Shown piece by piece: positions 13,277 to 35,719 of a stretch of DNA of 35,719 nucleotides. Under the pieces are notes generated by a model. That model did no database searches and was not told the DNA's origin. It was given only the letters and a program-made list of their open reading frames with translations. Source of the stretch: Candidatus Melainabacteria bacterium (GTDB taxonomy: Bacteria; Cyanobacteriota; Vampirovibrionia; Obscuribacterales; Obscuribacteraceae). Position numbers and translations under genes: made by a program. Position 1 is the stretch's first letter; every line of letters starts with the position of its first letter. The stretch covers positions 1-35,719 of the forward strand of contig RXJR01000044.1 of NCBI GenBank assembly GCA_003963305.1, given 5' to 3'.

Positions 13277-13359
13277 TGGCTGGTTCACTAAAAAAGCCCG
13301 GTTATACTTAATAATATAGTAAAGACTTAATAGCGTAAAATAAACATTTCAAGCTACTA

Positions 13360-13406
13360 AACCAAAAGGAAAAAGGGTGGAAGAACTGTCGTTCACTCCA
13401 CCCTTT
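13360..13406 (-). terminator. intrinsic terminator of the GH2 gene
   Basis: On the minus strand AAAGGGTGGA pairs perfectly with TCCACCCTTT (10 bp, arms 13397-13406 and 13372-13381) and runs into TTTTCCTTTTGG. It starts 23 bases after the GH2 stop codon at 13429. Confidence 0.8.
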
Positions 13407-13428
13407 AAGTTCGCGAATGCGCTGCCGG

Positions 13429-15246
13429 TCAGCCCATTGTCACCTTACGCATCACTTCGAGCGAGAACTTGGGCGTGCGGTCCATCCAGAACAAGCCATT
13501 CGCCTCCTGATACACGTCGGTGAACTCGGTGTAGCAGAAACCTCCAAGAACAGGAAGAGCATGGACCACCGCCATCAGCTCGCCATAGCGACAAGCCAGC
13601 TCCTCAGGCGTTTTCGCTTCGGAATACCCCCAGCTCCCCGTCTCTTTGGATAGCTTGATGCCACCGAATTCGGTGAGCAAGATAGGCTTGCCTTGATAGG
13701 TCATGCCGTCAAGCAACAACACTCGACCACCCGGCTTTTCCTCCCTGAAGAGACGCTCGAGATTCTCCGGCGCGTACCTGCGCGAGATACGCGCCGTATC
13801 AGCATCGTAGTCATGAATAGCGACGATGTCGCTTTCCACCATCTCCCAGCCGTCGTTGCCCACCACCACAGCACCACCGGTGAGGCTCCTGGTGAGCCGA
13901 TACATCGACCGCTGATACTCGCGCTGCAGCGAAGAGTCGGGCAGTTGCAATACTCCCCATGACTCGTTGATAGGCACCCAGGCGATGATGCAGCCGTGGT
14001 TGCGATCACGCTCTATCGCCTCTGACCAGCAGCGAATCGAACGCACCATCGACTTGTCGGTGAAGTGATAAGCGCTCGGCAATTCCTCCCAGACAAAAAG
14101 ACCAAGCCTGTCTGCCCAGTAGAGGAAGCGGGGATCTTCGAGCTTGTTGTGCTTGCGCACCCCGTTGAAACCCGCCTCTTTGATGAGACGGATATCTTCC
14201 TGGACGGCCGCGTCATCAGGCGGGGTCATGCCCGAAGACGCCCAGTAGCCCTGGTCAAGCACGAGGCGCAGCCGATCGCTGCAGTTGTTGACGAAAATCC
14301 GATCGCCTCTGGTCTCAGCCTTTACCAGCTGCGTGTACGACCGCACCATGTCGATGACAGCACCGCTTTCGTCGCGCAACTCGAGGATGGCGTCTATCAA
14401 GTTGGGATGATTGGGGTGCCAGAAGTAGCGCTCACGGATACGATCGATTGACCCGTCAGGCAGGTCACTGAGCTCGCTCAGTTCGGTCAGTTGGATGGTG
14501 CGCTTCAGCTCACCGTTGCGCACATCACGTGTGGTGAGGGCATAGCTGACATCGGCGAGAACATCATCGCCCACGGCGAGCTTGATGACGACACGCATCC
14601 GCTCGTTGAGCGGACCGTCCAGACGCAGCGCCAGGTCGACAGTGAAGTGATCGATGGAGGGTCTCCAGGTGACCGACTGAAGAGAGGTGCTGGGAACGAC
14701 CTCCATCCAGACGGTCTGCCAGATGCCTGTCGTGCGCGGATACCAGATGCCGTGCGGCACCTCCTCCCAGTCTTGCTTGCCGCGGTTCTTCTCCAGATCG
14801 TGTGGATTGTCTTCGGCACGCACGCAGACGACGAACGGCTTGCCGGGTTCGACGTGATCAGTGATGTCGGCCGAAAACGGAGTGTACCCGCCCTCGTGTT
14901 CAACCACGAAATGATCGTTGATCCAGACACGAGCTGACCAGTCGACCGCACCGAAGTGCAGAATCAGGCGTTCGCCTGGTTTTAAGTCGGGCGCGTCCAC
15001 CGCGCGGCGGTACCAGACAGCTTTGTAGAACGACGTATCGCCGACACCGCTGGCAGGCGTTTCCGGCGCGAAGGGTACGACGATTGTGGTATCGCCGAAG
15101 GTGACATGTTTGGGGAAGCGAACGACCGCCTCATGGTCGATAACAAACTGCCACGAACCGTTGAGGCAGACCCAGTCGCTTCGAGCGAACTGCGGACGGG
15201 GATAGCCGTGGCCAGCTCCGTCAACTTTCGAGAGTTGTGGTTCCAT
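13429..15246 (-). CDS. glycoside hydrolase family 2 (beta-galactosidase/beta-glucuronidase type)
   Basis: GH2 retaining glycosidase with the standard domain order: sugar-binding jelly roll (about 20-185, with LILHFGAVDWSARVWIND), immunoglobulin-like domain (190-310), and TIM barrel (315-600). The acid/base motif VPINESWG gives Glu428, and the nucleophile motif LLTEFGG gives Glu526. HGIWYPRTTGIWQTVWME and the GYTPF.ADIT stretch are typical of the family. No signal peptide is seen from this start, so the enzyme is probably cytoplasmic. The ATG at 15246 has GGAG nine bases upstream; ATGs at 15261 and 15342 are in frame but less well placed. Substrate specificity (galactoside, glucuronide or mannoside) cannot be read from the motifs. 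Confidence 0.9.
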   Translation of the reverse strand: MEPQLSKVDGAGHGYPRPQFARSDWVCLNGSWQFVIDHEAVVRFPKHVTFGDTTIVVPFAPETPASGVGDTSFYKAVWYRRAVDAPDLKPGERLILHFGAVDWSARVWINDHFVVEHEGGYTPFSADITDHVEPGKPFVVCVRAEDNPHDLEKNRGKQDWEEVPHGIWYPRTTGIWQTVWMEVVPSTSLQSVTWRPSIDHFTVDLALRLDGPLNERMRVVIKLAVGDDVLADVSYALTTRDVRNGELKRTIQLTELSELSDLPDGSIDRIRERYFWHPNHPNLIDAILELRDESGAVIDMVRSYTQLVKAETRGDRIFVNNCSDRLRLVLDQGYWASSGMTPPDDAAVQEDIRLIKEAGFNGVRKHNKLEDPRFLYWADRLGLFVWEELPSAYHFTDKSMVRSIRCWSEAIERDRNHGCIIAWVPINESWGVLQLPDSSLQREYQRSMYRLTRSLTGGAVVVGNDGWEMVESDIVAIHDYDADTARISRRYAPENLERLFREEKPGGRVLLLDGMTYQGKPILLTEFGGIKLSKETGSWGYSEAKTPEELACRYGELMAVVHALPVLGGFCYTEFTDVYQEANGLFWMDRTPKFSLEVMRKVTMG

Positions 15247-32605: not shown

Positions 32606-32715
32606 ACATCCCCTATCCACACCTTCCTGTGGTGGGGCCGGATACGGCAGACAACTTTGCCGGTGCCGGTGCTGGTTATGTCAGGTACAGGGACATGACT
32701 GGGGAAATTCTTCCC
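32606..32715 (+). ncRNA. structured leader RNA, copy A (upstream of the nuclease gene)
   Basis: Four consecutive helices are shared with copy B at 35531. HP1: CCCC/GGGG (32610-32613 with 32634-32637) around CCACA/TGTGG with loop CCTTCC. HP2: CCGG/CCGG (32638-32641 with 32666-32669), extended inside by CGGCA/TGCCG. Linker TGCTG (32670-32674). HP3: GTTATGTC/GACATGAC (32675-32682 with 32692-32699), loop AGGTACAGG. HP4: GGGAA-ATTC-TTCCC (32702-32715). Linkers are identical to copy B while stem bases change in compensating pairs. It ends 50 bases before the nuclease start. I recognise no known riboswitch class. The role is inferred to be cis-regulatory. Confidence 0.65.
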
Positions 32716-32740
32716 GTGGTCGCGCAAGTAGCGCGCCCAC
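32716..32740 (+). promoter_or_regulatory. extra hairpin between leader RNA copy A and the nuclease gene
   Basis: GTGG (32716-32719) pairs with CCAC (32737-32740), and inside CGCGC pairs with GCGCG around loop AAGTA. Copy B has no counterpart. It has no T-run and ends 14 bases before the ribosome site AAGGAA, so it may be an expression platform or merely a spacer. Confidence 0.45.
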
Positions 32741-32765
32741 ATCACTTCTAGAAAAGGAAATCGTT

Positions 32766-33671
32766 ATGCCAATGAACACACTTACGCATCAGAAGATGGA
32801 ACTCTTCCTGCGATGCCGGAAGAAGTTTCGTGAGACCGTCGCCAAAAACCGCGGTCAAGTTTCCCCCGAACAGCAGGTCGCTCAGATCGTCGGCAAGGCC
32901 GTCGAGCTCGCCACCGCCACGTCGGACCTCGAAAAGCGTCAGGTCATCATCGAAGCTGCCATGCAGCAGATTGCCGATGAGGACCAGACGGTCGAAGCGC
33001 TGCAGCGCGTCAAGAACTGCGTCAGCCGCTCCGACGAGCTTCGCTCCGACGAACGCGCCAGCGCGGTTCGCACGCAGCGCCAGTTCAAGTGGTTCGACGA
33101 AGTGACGCGCTGGACGCTCATGGCCAAGCCGGACTTCACGCGATTCGCTCGCGATGACCGTGGCCCCGTGCTCCAGATCATCGACGAGAAGACTGCCGGT
33201 CATGTCACGAGCTATCAGAAGCGCTTCCTGCACTTCCTCGGCTTCGTGATCGGCAAGCAACTCGACGAAGAGAAGCGCCAGCTCTTCGCAGAAGCGAAGC
33301 GTCTCGACATTCAGCCCACCTACGCCCTCAAGGAGAACTCCTTCCTGGCGGAGCTGGTCAACGAATTCGGGATCGACGTCATCTACCAGAACGTGTCGAT
33401 CGAGCTCGTCATCCGCCTGCTCGGCGACAGCGACAACCCCGAGGACAAGCCTCGCGAAGTCAGCATCGGCTTCAAGAAGCGTTCTCGCGACTGGCAACAG
33501 CTGGCGGAAATCCGCGAGGTGATTACCGGTATCGAAGCTGCCTTCGACGCAGCTGAGTTCCCCGGCAAGCCCGGCTGGTACTGCGAGAAGTGCCCGTTCA
33601 GGTCGACCTGCGCGGCCTACCAGGCACAACTCGCACAACATGCGGTGGACGAACTGAGCGCCACCGCCTAA
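32766..33671 (+). CDS. RecB/Cas4-like Fe-S cluster PD-(D/E)XK nuclease (301 aa)
   Basis: The nuclease core shows motif II KPDFTRF (Asp123), motif III IIDEKT (Asp140-Glu-Lys142) and a following helix with Gln151 (TSYQKRFLHF), matching the PDDEXK_1/RecB family. Cys17 in LFLRCRKKF and the C-terminal CEKCPFRSTC (Cys273, 276 and 282, C-x2-C-x5-C) are the four-cysteine iron-sulfur pattern of AddB, Cas4 and many phage exonucleases. There is no helicase part, so it is a stand-alone DNA end-processing enzyme, as in phage and mobile-element recombination modules. AAGGAA lies 8 bases before the ATG. Codons are strongly C/G-ending. A structured leader RNA lies upstream and a terminator follows. Confidence 0.82.
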   Translation: MPMNTLTHQKMELFLRCRKKFRETVAKNRGQVSPEQQVAQIVGKAVELATATSDLEKRQVIIEAAMQQIADEDQTVEALQRVKNCVSRSDELRSDERASAVRTQRQFKWFDEVTRWTLMAKPDFTRFARDDRGPVLQIIDEKTAGHVTSYQKRFLHFLGFVIGKQLDEEKRQLFAEAKRLDIQPTYALKENSFLAELVNEFGIDVIYQNVSIELVIRLLGDSDNPEDKPREVSIGFKKRSRDWQQLAEIREVITGIEAAFDAAEFPGKPGWYCEKCPFRSTCAAYQAQLAQHAVDELSATA

Positions 33672-33673
33672 AC

Positions 33674-33720
33674 ATGCTGAACGTGAACGCCGCTTCCACG
33701 CGGGTCCGTTGAGCATTTTC
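33674..33720 (+). terminator. intrinsic terminator after the nuclease gene
   Basis: ATGCTGAAC (33674-33682) pairs with GTTGAGCAT (33708-33716; one mismatch), with a small GC-rich stem inside, and is followed by TTTCTTTC. It begins 3 bases after the nuclease stop. Confidence 0.6.
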
Positions 33721-33729
33721 TTTCAAACC

Positions 33730-33748
33730 GCTGCCCTGAAACGGCAGC
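33730..33748 (+). promoter_or_regulatory. small hairpin before the His-rich protein gene
   Basis: GCTGCC pairs perfectly with GGCAGC around the 7-base loop CTGAAAC, ending 10 bases before the strong ribosome site AAGGAG of the gene at 33771. It could protect a processed 5' end after the terminator. Confidence 0.4.
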
Positions 33749-33770
33749 ACAAAACAAGAAGGAGAATCTT

Positions 33771-34814
33771 ATGGACCATGGTATTGGACACAACGACGGA
33801 GCACACGGCGGTCACGACGGTCACATCACCAAAGACGCGCTGTTCTTCTCCGGTCACGGCACTCACTCGGGCGGTCACGTCTCGTTCGCTTACCACGGTG
33901 GCGGGCACGGCGTCGACAACCATCACCAGCTGACGGTGCCCGAGGCGGTGTCGCCCCAGGGTAACGGCGCGTCCATCGACGTGCACGTGCCCACCACCAC
34001 CGCAGACGGCGACGCCATCCGCGGTTACATCAGCCACATCTCGCGGCACGGTCGCATCGACGTCCTCTCGACGTTCCGTCAGATCGCCGCTCGGTACGAC
34101 CTCATCCAGATCGATGGGCGTCGTCCCGGGCTCGACCTGAGCAACCGGCTGTTCTACCAGATCCTCGACTTCGACGCCTGGCAGCACGCCCAGGAGCTGA
34201 GCGAGGGTCGCCCCTACGACGCTGCCACACATGGTGAGCGGGCCAAGCCCAACGGCTGGTACCCGGGCGCCACCGGCAGCACCTCACTGATTCGCGAATA
34301 CTGGCAGGTGGGCAAGCGCAAGCGTTTGTTCGGTCAGCCCGAGTTCGACAATCAGGCTGGCACCTATCTCGAGGTGTCGGTGATCACCTGGCGCTACATC
34401 GAGAGCGGCGACTTCGAGACCAAGCTCGAGGTTCGCGTCATCTCGGCGCCGGAGTGGTCGGAGCGTGAGGGCAAGTGGGGCTATCGTGGCAAGCCGTTCG
34501 AGACCCACCAGCGGGTGGCGATCAAGGCTTACACCGCCATGATGGAGGTGCTGATCAAGACCAAGCCCGACGCGGCTGCCGTGGCTCTGCGCGCGGCTGT
34601 CGACAGGAAGTACCCGCCTCAGCCGTGGGCGCCGGAAGGCACCTACGCCATGACGGAAAGCGAGATCCTCGAGCGCGAGCTTGAGGCAATCGCTGATGAC
34701 GCACGCGCCGACCAGGTGGCCAGGGACAACCAGCCCGGTCTGCCGGGTGCCACCAAGGGCGATGGCGGTGACGATTCCGGGACGGCCGACGTCACGGTCG
34801 AACTGGAAGACTGA
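33771..34814 (+). CDS. hypothetical protein with a histidine-rich N-terminus (347 aa)
   Basis: The first 52 residues contain 12 His among Gly, Asp and Ser (GAHGGHDGH, SGHGTHSGGH, YHGGGHG), a likely flexible metal-binding tail. The middle (about 75-280) is a globular alpha/beta domain with many aromatic and charged residues (GYPGATG-like loop, TYLEVSVITWRYIESGDFE). The last 50 residues are acidic and disordered (ELEAIADDARADQ to VTVELED). I do not recognise the domain. Its position right after an exonuclease would suit a single-strand annealing or DNA-binding partner, but that is speculation. AAGGAG lies 8 bases before the ATG, and a terminator follows closely. Confidence 0.72.
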   Translation: MDHGIGHNDGAHGGHDGHITKDALFFSGHGTHSGGHVSFAYHGGGHGVDNHHQLTVPEAVSPQGNGASIDVHVPTTTADGDAIRGYISHISRHGRIDVLSTFRQIAARYDLIQIDGRRPGLDLSNRLFYQILDFDAWQHAQELSEGRPYDAATHGERAKPNGWYPGATGSTSLIREYWQVGKRKRLFGQPEFDNQAGTYLEVSVITWRYIESGDFETKLEVRVISAPEWSEREGKWGYRGKPFETHQRVAIKAYTAMMEVLIKTKPDAAAVALRAAVDRKYPPQPWAPEGTYAMTESEILERELEAIADDARADQVARDNQPGLPGATKGDGGDDSGTADVTVELED

Positions 34815-34819
34815 GAGCG

Positions 34820-34854
34820 AGGAGCAGCCCGGATAACCTTCGGGCTGCTCCTTT
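34820..34854 (+). terminator. intrinsic terminator after the His-rich protein gene
   Basis: AGGAGCAGCCCG pairs with CGGGCTGCTCCT (12 bp, 34820-34831 with 34841-34852) around a 9-base loop, followed by TTGCTC. It starts 6 bases after the stop codon. Confidence 0.7.
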
Positions 34855-34935
34855 GCTCATACAACAACAAACGCCCCGGCACCGACCGACCGGCAAGGCG
34901 ACAACAGGTCGATTAACTAACAAAAGCAATGCCTC

Positions 34936-35211
34936 ATGAAGAAGTTCAATCCCGCCACTGACAGCATCCCCGCCGAACTGAACAACAAGTCGTTCATCGG
35001 CGACATCCTCATCGCCCTCGGGTTCGCCACGCGCGCCCAGGTCGACAACGCGCTTGCCATCCAGCAAGCGGAACGGGCCGCTCTCACCGAGGCGGAAAAG
35101 CTCGCCAACAAGAAGACCCGCTTCACCGGCGAGATTCTGGTCGACGAGAAGGTCTGCACGCAAGAGCAGATCGACTACGGATTGGACGTGCAGAACCACC
35201 TGCGCAAGTAG
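34936..35211 (+). CDS. small protein with two MshEN-like repeats (91 aa)
   Basis: Residues 19-44 (FIGDILIALGFATRAQVDNA) and 62-88 (RFTGEILVDEKVCTQEQIDY) are two copies of a helix-turn-helix unit of the form xxGxIL....G.xT..Qx..AL..Q. This is the repeat that makes up the MshEN/GspE N-terminal domain, which in known cases binds cyclic di-GMP or a pilus ATPase partner. Here it stands alone, with no ATPase. The spacer between units is longer than usual, and the canonical Arg-Leu-Gly reads F-I-G in the first copy, so nucleotide binding is uncertain. The ATG lacks a clear ribosome site. A small membrane protein gene follows after 52 bases. Confidence 0.7.
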   Translation: MKKFNPATDSIPAELNNKSFIGDILIALGFATRAQVDNALAIQQAERAALTEAEKLANKKTRFTGEILVDEKVCTQEQIDYGLDVQNHLRK

Positions 35212-35263
35212 GAGACACGTTCTAAGCGTTCCCTGTTTCTCAACCAAGAAAAGAGAGAAGGTC

Positions 35264-35521
35264 ATGAACTACACAATCAATGTCCTGCCGACCCAGGCGA
35301 TGTCGTGCGCCACGCAGGTGCTCATCGGAGTCGTCCTCGCCGTCATCATCTACTGCTCGATGCGTCAGCACTCGCGCGGTTACATGGCGGCGGTGATGAT
35401 CGCAGCCGGCGCGTCGCTGTACATCCACAGCTTCCCGCTCATGGGTGCCGCCATCGCGCTCGCCTGCGTGGTCGCCGTGATCACGCGCTGCAACGAGAAG
35501 TCGAAGCCGTCGCTGTCGTGA
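35264..35521 (+). CDS. small membrane protein (85 aa)
   Basis: Two or three hydrophobic segments (about 17-34, 39-53 and 57-75) separated by very short basic/polar turns, ending in a short basic tail (RCNEKSKPSLS), suggest an inner-membrane hairpin protein. GAGAAGG lies 3-4 bases before the ATG at 35264. The frame is open further upstream only because the DNA is G+C-rich, overlapping the previous gene. The family is not recognised. The structured RNA copy B begins 9 bases after its stop. Confidence 0.65.
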   Translation: MNYTINVLPTQAMSCATQVLIGVVLAVIIYCSMRQHSRGYMAAVMIAAGASLYIHSFPLMGAAIALACVVAVITRCNEKSKPSLS

Positions 35522-35530
35522 CGAGCTGAG

Positions 35531-35624
35531 ACACATCCCCTATCCGCACCATCCTGCGGTGGGGCCGGTGAAATTCCGGTGCTGGTCAGACCAGGCATGG
35601 GGTCTGACTGGGGAAAACGTTCCC
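35531..35624 (+). ncRNA. structured leader RNA, copy B (upstream of the gene at the right edge)
   Basis: Same four-helix plan as copy A. HP1: CCCC/GGGG (35537-35540 with 35561-35564) around CCGCA/TGCGG with loop CCATCC. HP2: CCGG/CCGG (35565-35568 with 35576-35579) with a 7-base loop. Linker TGCTG (35580-35584). HP3: GTCAGACC/GGTCTGAC (35585-35592 with 35601-35608), loop AGGCATGG. HP4: GGGAA-AACG-TTCCC (35611-35624). Relative to copy A, HP1 has one and HP3 three compensatory base-pair exchanges. The element precedes a repeat-bearing 5' UTR and a start codon at 35717. Confidence 0.65.
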
Positions 35625-35633
35625 AAAACCAAG

Positions 35634-35703
35634 CGCCCGAAGGCAATCACGCCGTCGGGCAATCAACGCCGCAAGGCAACAAACCAAAACCGCCGCAAGG
35701 CAA
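35634..35703 (+). repeat. four 13-base units, each a GCC-tetraloop-GGC mini-hairpin
   Basis: Units start at 35634 (CGCCCGAAGGCAA), 35650 (CGCCGTCGGGCAA), 35667 and 35691 (both CGCCGCAAGGCAA). In each, GCC can pair with GGC across four bases (CGAA, GTCG, GCAA, GCAA); the last two are GNRA-type tetraloops. The final unit runs into the ribosome site AAGGAG. Confidence 0.65.
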
Positions 35704-35716
35704 AGGAGAAACAACT

Positions 35717-35719
35717 ATG
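35717..35719 (+). CDS. start codon of a gene that continues beyond the window
   Basis: An ATG at the very end follows a perfect AAGGAG (35703-35708) with an 8-base spacer. Its leader contains RNA copy B and the mini-hairpin repeats. Nothing of the protein is visible, but the leader predicts shared regulation with the nuclease gene at 32766. Confidence 0.6.

Follow-up and report, generated by a model that had tools for sequence, protein, structure and literature searches.

The antitermination RNAs put and EAR normally occur in one or two copies per operon, and the hairpin and twister-sister ribozymes are built on four-way junctions whose size and compactness are like those of the RNA described here. 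Riboswitches and candidate cis-regulatory RNAs are also well documented, and candidates with an unknown ligand are a known kind (PMC2864571). We report an RNA family that is new, in that it is not in Rfam 15, but of a known kind, a structured cis-acting RNA; its repeated intercistronic arrangement is unusual. Scans of the window and of eight related loci found no Rfam 15 family at or above its gathering threshold, four single copies run at permissive E values gave scattered subthreshold matches alone, and a limited search of the literature found no description of this RNA.

The window, a stretch of 35,719 nucleotides from Candidatus Melainabacteria bacterium (assembly GCA_003963305.1, contig RXJR01000044.1, here C44), carries two copies of the RNA on its plus strand. 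Counted as the whole motif with HP4, copy A occupies 32606 to 32715 and copy B 35533 to 35624; a preliminary description had placed them at 32606 to 32715 and 35531 to 35624, and direct reading and alignment found both there. The features which that description listed as common to both, namely the order of four hairpins, the TGCTG and TG linkers, the loop edges, and the CACAT flank, are exact. The paired exchange reported in HP1 (CCACA/TGTGG versus CCGCA/TGCGG) was confirmed by alignment, as were, in HP3, three double exchanges and one change of C-G to U-G (GTTATGTC/GACATGAC versus GTCAGACC/GGTCTGAC). The extra inner helix noted in HP2 of copy A, relative to copy B, also holds, and other copies vary in what is inserted there. 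HP4, presented as part of the motif, is present in most copies and missing from some.

In copy A, the 5′ strand of P1 is UCCCC (32609 to 32613), the partner of GGGGA (32701 to 32705); shifted by two, the 5′ stretch instead extends HP1, with CCCUA paired to UGGGG, and GGGGA can alternatively serve as the 5′ strand of HP4, the 3′ strand of which is UUCCC (32711 to 32715). P2, equivalent to HP1, spans 32617 to 32632 (CCACA, loop CCUUCC, UGUGG), and 100% of the cells of this helix are paired. The near-invariant UGGGG (32633 to 32637) either pairs with the 5′ strand in the alternative fold or forms the base of P3 in the junction fold. P3, equivalent to HP2, spans 32638 to 32669 and consists of CCGG/CCGG with an inner helix of 7 bp (32645 to 32651 with 32656 to 32662); it is followed by UGCUG (32670 to 32674), near-invariant in the alignments, and by P4, equivalent to HP3 (32675 to 32699; GUUAUGUC, loop AGGUACAGG, GACAUGAC), in which all 8 pairs are changed on both sides. 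The corresponding parts of copy B, likewise on the plus strand, are P1 (35536 to 35540 with 35610 to 35614), P2 (35544 to 35559), P3 (35565 to 35579), P4 (35585 to 35608), and the HP4 3′ strand (35620 to 35624). Folded as single sequences, copies A and B are mildly better than shuffles (z scores of −2.15 and −1.68); since the folding energy of a single copy barely beats shuffles, the case rests on comparison.

The preliminary description had proposed that further copies be sought with covariance models. By pattern search, the window's own genome yielded a third copy, and three relatives yielded another six. R1, a covariance model built from nine copies, scored copy A at 87.8 bits and copy B at 108.2 bits and, run on 50 genomes of the window's own family, gave 29 matches spread over 16 of them; one match (L278, 23.9 bits) is doubtful. 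R2, a second covariance model (79.4 and 99.8 bits for copies A and B), contributed one further clear copy (G008) and three weak ones (two in G009 and one in G002). The two copies first described thus become 30 clear copies in 17 of the 50 genomes, with three weaker copies that include an 18th genome. Five lie in the window's own genome: A, B, a near-copy at C10:121-207, which stands at the start of its contig, and two divergent copies on C20. In a sample of 289 genomes of the class, all 18 with matches were members of the family, and nothing credible was found outside it, either there or in phylum samples of 292 and 386 genomes; weak R1 matches in the phylum (G117, G124, and G066; 20 to 25 bits) were not confirmed by R2. 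A first, loose pattern gathered mostly chance matches, the best of which under R2 (L179, 28 bits) lies inside an open frame. Phage and plasmid records and viral contigs gave no match to copy A by blastn or pattern, and six pattern matches in viral contigs failed the covariance model.

The conserved core is about 86 nt long and forms a four-way junction of P1 (UCCCC/GGGGA), P2 (CCGCA/UGCGG), P3 (CCGG/CCGG), and an 8-bp P4, with UGGGG and UGCUG as its near-invariant segments. We measured covariation in an alignment of 29 clear copies extracted with more flank (A6). Sixteen of 22 pairs, P1 included, are changed on both sides; 97.6% of cells are paired, against 80% in shuffles and 33 to 51% when partners are slid; double-change cells number 96, against 18 in shuffles; and the covariation score is 0.491, against 0.163 for shuffled alignments and at most 0.098 for slid partners. 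That the base pairs change in this matched fashion indicates that the fold is under selection, and on these comparisons helices P2, P3, and P4 are supported beyond doubt. By the same comparisons, the RNA has the conserved, covarying, aptamer-like core of a riboswitch-type cis-regulatory RNA. Wobble intermediates in P1 to P4 are unequal, with about 22 cells of U-G or G-U on the sense strand and 4 of A-C or C-A, an asymmetry that favors an RNA of the sense strand. Divergent copies without GGGGA, and hence without P1, keep P2 to P4 (L294:9949-10031 and 13345-13439, L304:9898-9993, and L323:9664-9784); they come from G000 and G002, and two of them precede small, apparently membrane-type proteins. 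The further copies, the strong covariation, and the absence from Rfam together bear out the earlier suggestion of a conserved functional RNA, possibly of a new class.

Each copy that has an adjoining reading frame lies on the strand of that frame, and 22 of 27 judgeable copies begin 5 to 155 nt past an upstream stop codon on the same strand (the upstream frames, of at least 80 codons, were called mechanically, and a few may be spurious). Both copies in the window had been assigned to 5′ leaders. This is right for copy A, which heads its operon and precedes an ATG at 32766 with the Shine-Dalgarno sequence AGGAA, but not for copy B, which is intercistronic; because most copies stand between cistrons, "leader" was narrowed to "mostly intercistronic." The gene after copy A encodes a PD-(D/E)XK nuclease of 301 aa (32766 to 33671; Pfam PF12705, E = 2.5e-6, above the cut-off; weak Cas4 match). 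It is followed, also on the plus strand, by an uncharacterized 347-aa gene (33771 to 34814), with homologues in six other genomes, mostly beside the nuclease, the 350-aa family being present in seven genomes; by an uncharacterized 91-aa gene (34936 to 35211) with homologues in G002 and G054; and by an uncharacterized 85-aa reading frame (35264 to 35521), read from the sequence and without a Pfam match, which stops 11 nt ahead of copy B. Past copy B, the first start codon coincides with the final three nucleotides of the contig (35717 to 35719, plus strand); by synteny with G002:C34 it opens a 121-aa gene. The first bases of C10 fall within a homologue of this expected gene, and by the same synteny C44 and C10 are probably neighbors, broken at repeated RNA-plus-gene units. 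Such units occur in tandem at L251:2612-3899 of G002, where the RNA and the 121-aa gene are repeated and a further copy and an S1-domain gene follow.

In 14 genomes a copy is followed by a PD-(D/E)XK nuclease, whose protein identity across genomes falls to about 20% while the RNA core stays alike. In the nuclease alignment (A8), one N-terminal and two C-terminal cysteines are kept and a third is nearly invariant, a pattern that we take to resemble that of the Cas4/AddB iron-sulfur nucleases; for assignment of the cluster to a defense system, weak Cas4 and DruK nuclease matches alone were obtained. The association is not obligate: G018 and G059 to G062 have the nuclease without detectable RNA, and copies in G004, G005, G053, and G065 and on G000:C20 precede nonnuclease genes. 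Other copies precede S1-domain proteins or small uncharacterized proteins, and in nine genomes the RNA comes after a gene of a family of about 140 aa. S1-domain proteins occur in the clusters of G000, G002, G015, and others, isochorismatase-like hydrolases are also found in clusters, and a Fic/DOC family protein lies in one at L254:2549-3238. Directly after one copy, at L281:1439-1499 (minus strand), is an element of 61 nt that resembles a tRNA: its T-arm is perfect (CCGGGUUCGAUUCCCGG), and a short stem is acceptor-like. It gave weak Rfam matches to Deinococcus Y RNA and tRNA-Sec (E of about 0.5), and ARAGORN called no tRNA in it. The G+C content is 0.61 to 0.64 over the nuclease cluster (33000 to 35719), compared with mostly 0.47 to 0.59 elsewhere in the window, and the operon looks as if it had been acquired; in empty-site comparisons, contigs ended or the gene was absent.

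The strands of P1 are complementary not only to each other but also to UGGGG and to the downstream UUCCC, and because these partners are shared, the two resulting folds exclude each other. Matched U-A changes occur in P1 in two copies of G013 and one of G054, and in the G008 copy, found later, UCUCG faces GGAGA. Taken alone, P1 is modestly supported by the alignment: it has both-side changes in 3 cells, and its covariation score is no different from the one obtained after a one-column slide of the partners, so it is not decisive, because slid G runs score equally. For the alternative helix, formed by the 5′ strand and UGGGG, the cells changed on both sides also number three, and a single degenerate copy accounts for two of these. 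Most copies have, shortly after GGGGA, a sequence complementary to it, an enrichment over shuffles (10.4 versus 8.07 ± 0.54, with 0 of 500 as high). Under a nearest-neighbor model, most copies favor the HP1 extension with HP4, and without ligand the junction fold lies a median of 3.4 kcal/mol above the free ensemble, a predicted cost that a ligand, a protein, or tertiary contacts could meet. In the modeled junction fold, P3 can be lengthened by the UGGGG and UGCU segments, a role that might account for why they are conserved; they vary too little for covariation. Two exclusive arrangements, a junction closed by P1 and a pairing of the 5′ C-rich strand with UGGGG alongside HP4, are thus supported, less strongly than the core helices. 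With P1 formed, the Shine-Dalgarno sequence is as exposed as without it (0.43 versus 0.40), so masking is not supported, and no terminator U-run was seen by eye at HP4; neither kind of riboswitch expression platform was therefore found, although the competing HP4 is present. Kissing of the loops of P2 (CCAUCC) and P4 (AGG..GG) is not supported, as it scored 7.5, against 7.85 with loops swapped between copies.

Sense orientation, wobble asymmetry, and position together point to an RNA that acts in cis, and the cis-regulatory role first suggested is likely, given the constant orientation and the constant place upstream of genes. Our best reading, which we consider probable from the comparative data, is a cis-acting regulatory, mostly intercistronic RNA of an accessory operon. 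It would be transcribed with the adjoining genes and act on the downstream cistron or cistrons of an operon that encodes a PD-(D/E)XK nuclease and RNA-binding S1-domain proteins. It could adopt either the four-way junction closed by P1 (UCCCC/GGGGA) or the arrangement in which the 5′ C-rich strand pairs with UGGGG and GGGGA pairs with the downstream UUCCC of HP4. A small molecule or a protein, possibly one of the S1 proteins that the operon encodes, would favor one of these, and the favored arrangement would alter how stable the downstream cistron is or how it is translated or read through; in this way the operon's unrelated genes would come under common control. More tentatively, and with considerable doubt, the RNA might be a bistable intercistronic switch or ribozyme of a new class, in which the dosage of every cistron is set by one signal, by way of four strands complementary to one another and not through a terminator or a Shine-Dalgarno mask.

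A processing element, whether a self-cleaving ribozyme or a site of RNase entry, would split the polycistronic message between its genes and set their relative dosage. It would account for the mostly intercistronic position, the several copies per operon, the compact junction with its near-invariant segments, and the lack of a visible terminator or Shine-Dalgarno mask; we think it unlikely, however, as no Rfam ribozyme family matches, some copies without P1 persist, and copy A heads its operon. Improbable too is a protein-binding operator or a processive antitermination site like put or EAR, at which an RNA-binding protein encoded in the operon would bind the invariant segments with no need for refolding. 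The S1-domain proteins of the clusters are circumstantial evidence for it, and the four copies at the head of and inside one operon in G002 also speak for it, but an S1 gene was not seen in some clusters examined, there are more copies per operon than an antiterminator should need, and the complementary strands suggest more than passive binding. That the RNA is a mobile or repeat element (a DNA hairpin, a recombination site, or a trans-acting small RNA) spread through the cluster is very unlikely, for despite its patchy occurrence (18 of 50 genomes), the repeated units in G002, and the contigs that break at copies, it is always on the sense strand with asymmetric wobbles, shows neither target duplication nor transposase, and diverges in compensated fashion. 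An integron attC site or other DNA hairpin was rejected: inspection of the aligned copies found no paired GTTRRRY and RYYYAAC core sites, and the wobbles favor the sense strand.

The RNA is a well-supported structure without an Rfam match, found in uncultured bacteria and tied to an operon whose nucleases diverge rapidly, and the covariance model and alignment allow direct tests of it. Were it to sense a ligand or cleave itself, a new class would be added; if an S1-domain protein binds it, an accessory relative of ribosomal protein S1 would be shown to exert autogenous control. Intercistronic position and repetition within one operon are unusual for a riboswitch-like element.

The GGUGAAANUCC-type hairpin loop of P3 presumably gives a local resemblance to the cobalamin and FMN riboswitches. 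There was no match to the former and one weak match to the latter (12.6 bits, against a cut-off of 66.2), and in other copies this loop gives way to stems. From the hairpin and twister-sister ribozymes the RNA differs in its conserved segments, and neither family was matched in Rfam. Like put and EAR, it may be a structured RNA of long operons that acts on downstream cistrons; those families have no Rfam match in the window, and here up to four copies occur per operon. Compared with riboswitch candidates (PMC2864571), it is without an Rfam match or a recognized expression platform, is mostly intercistronic with several copies per operon, and is confined to one bacterial family, but it shares with them a compact, covarying core upstream of genes and mutually exclusive helices.
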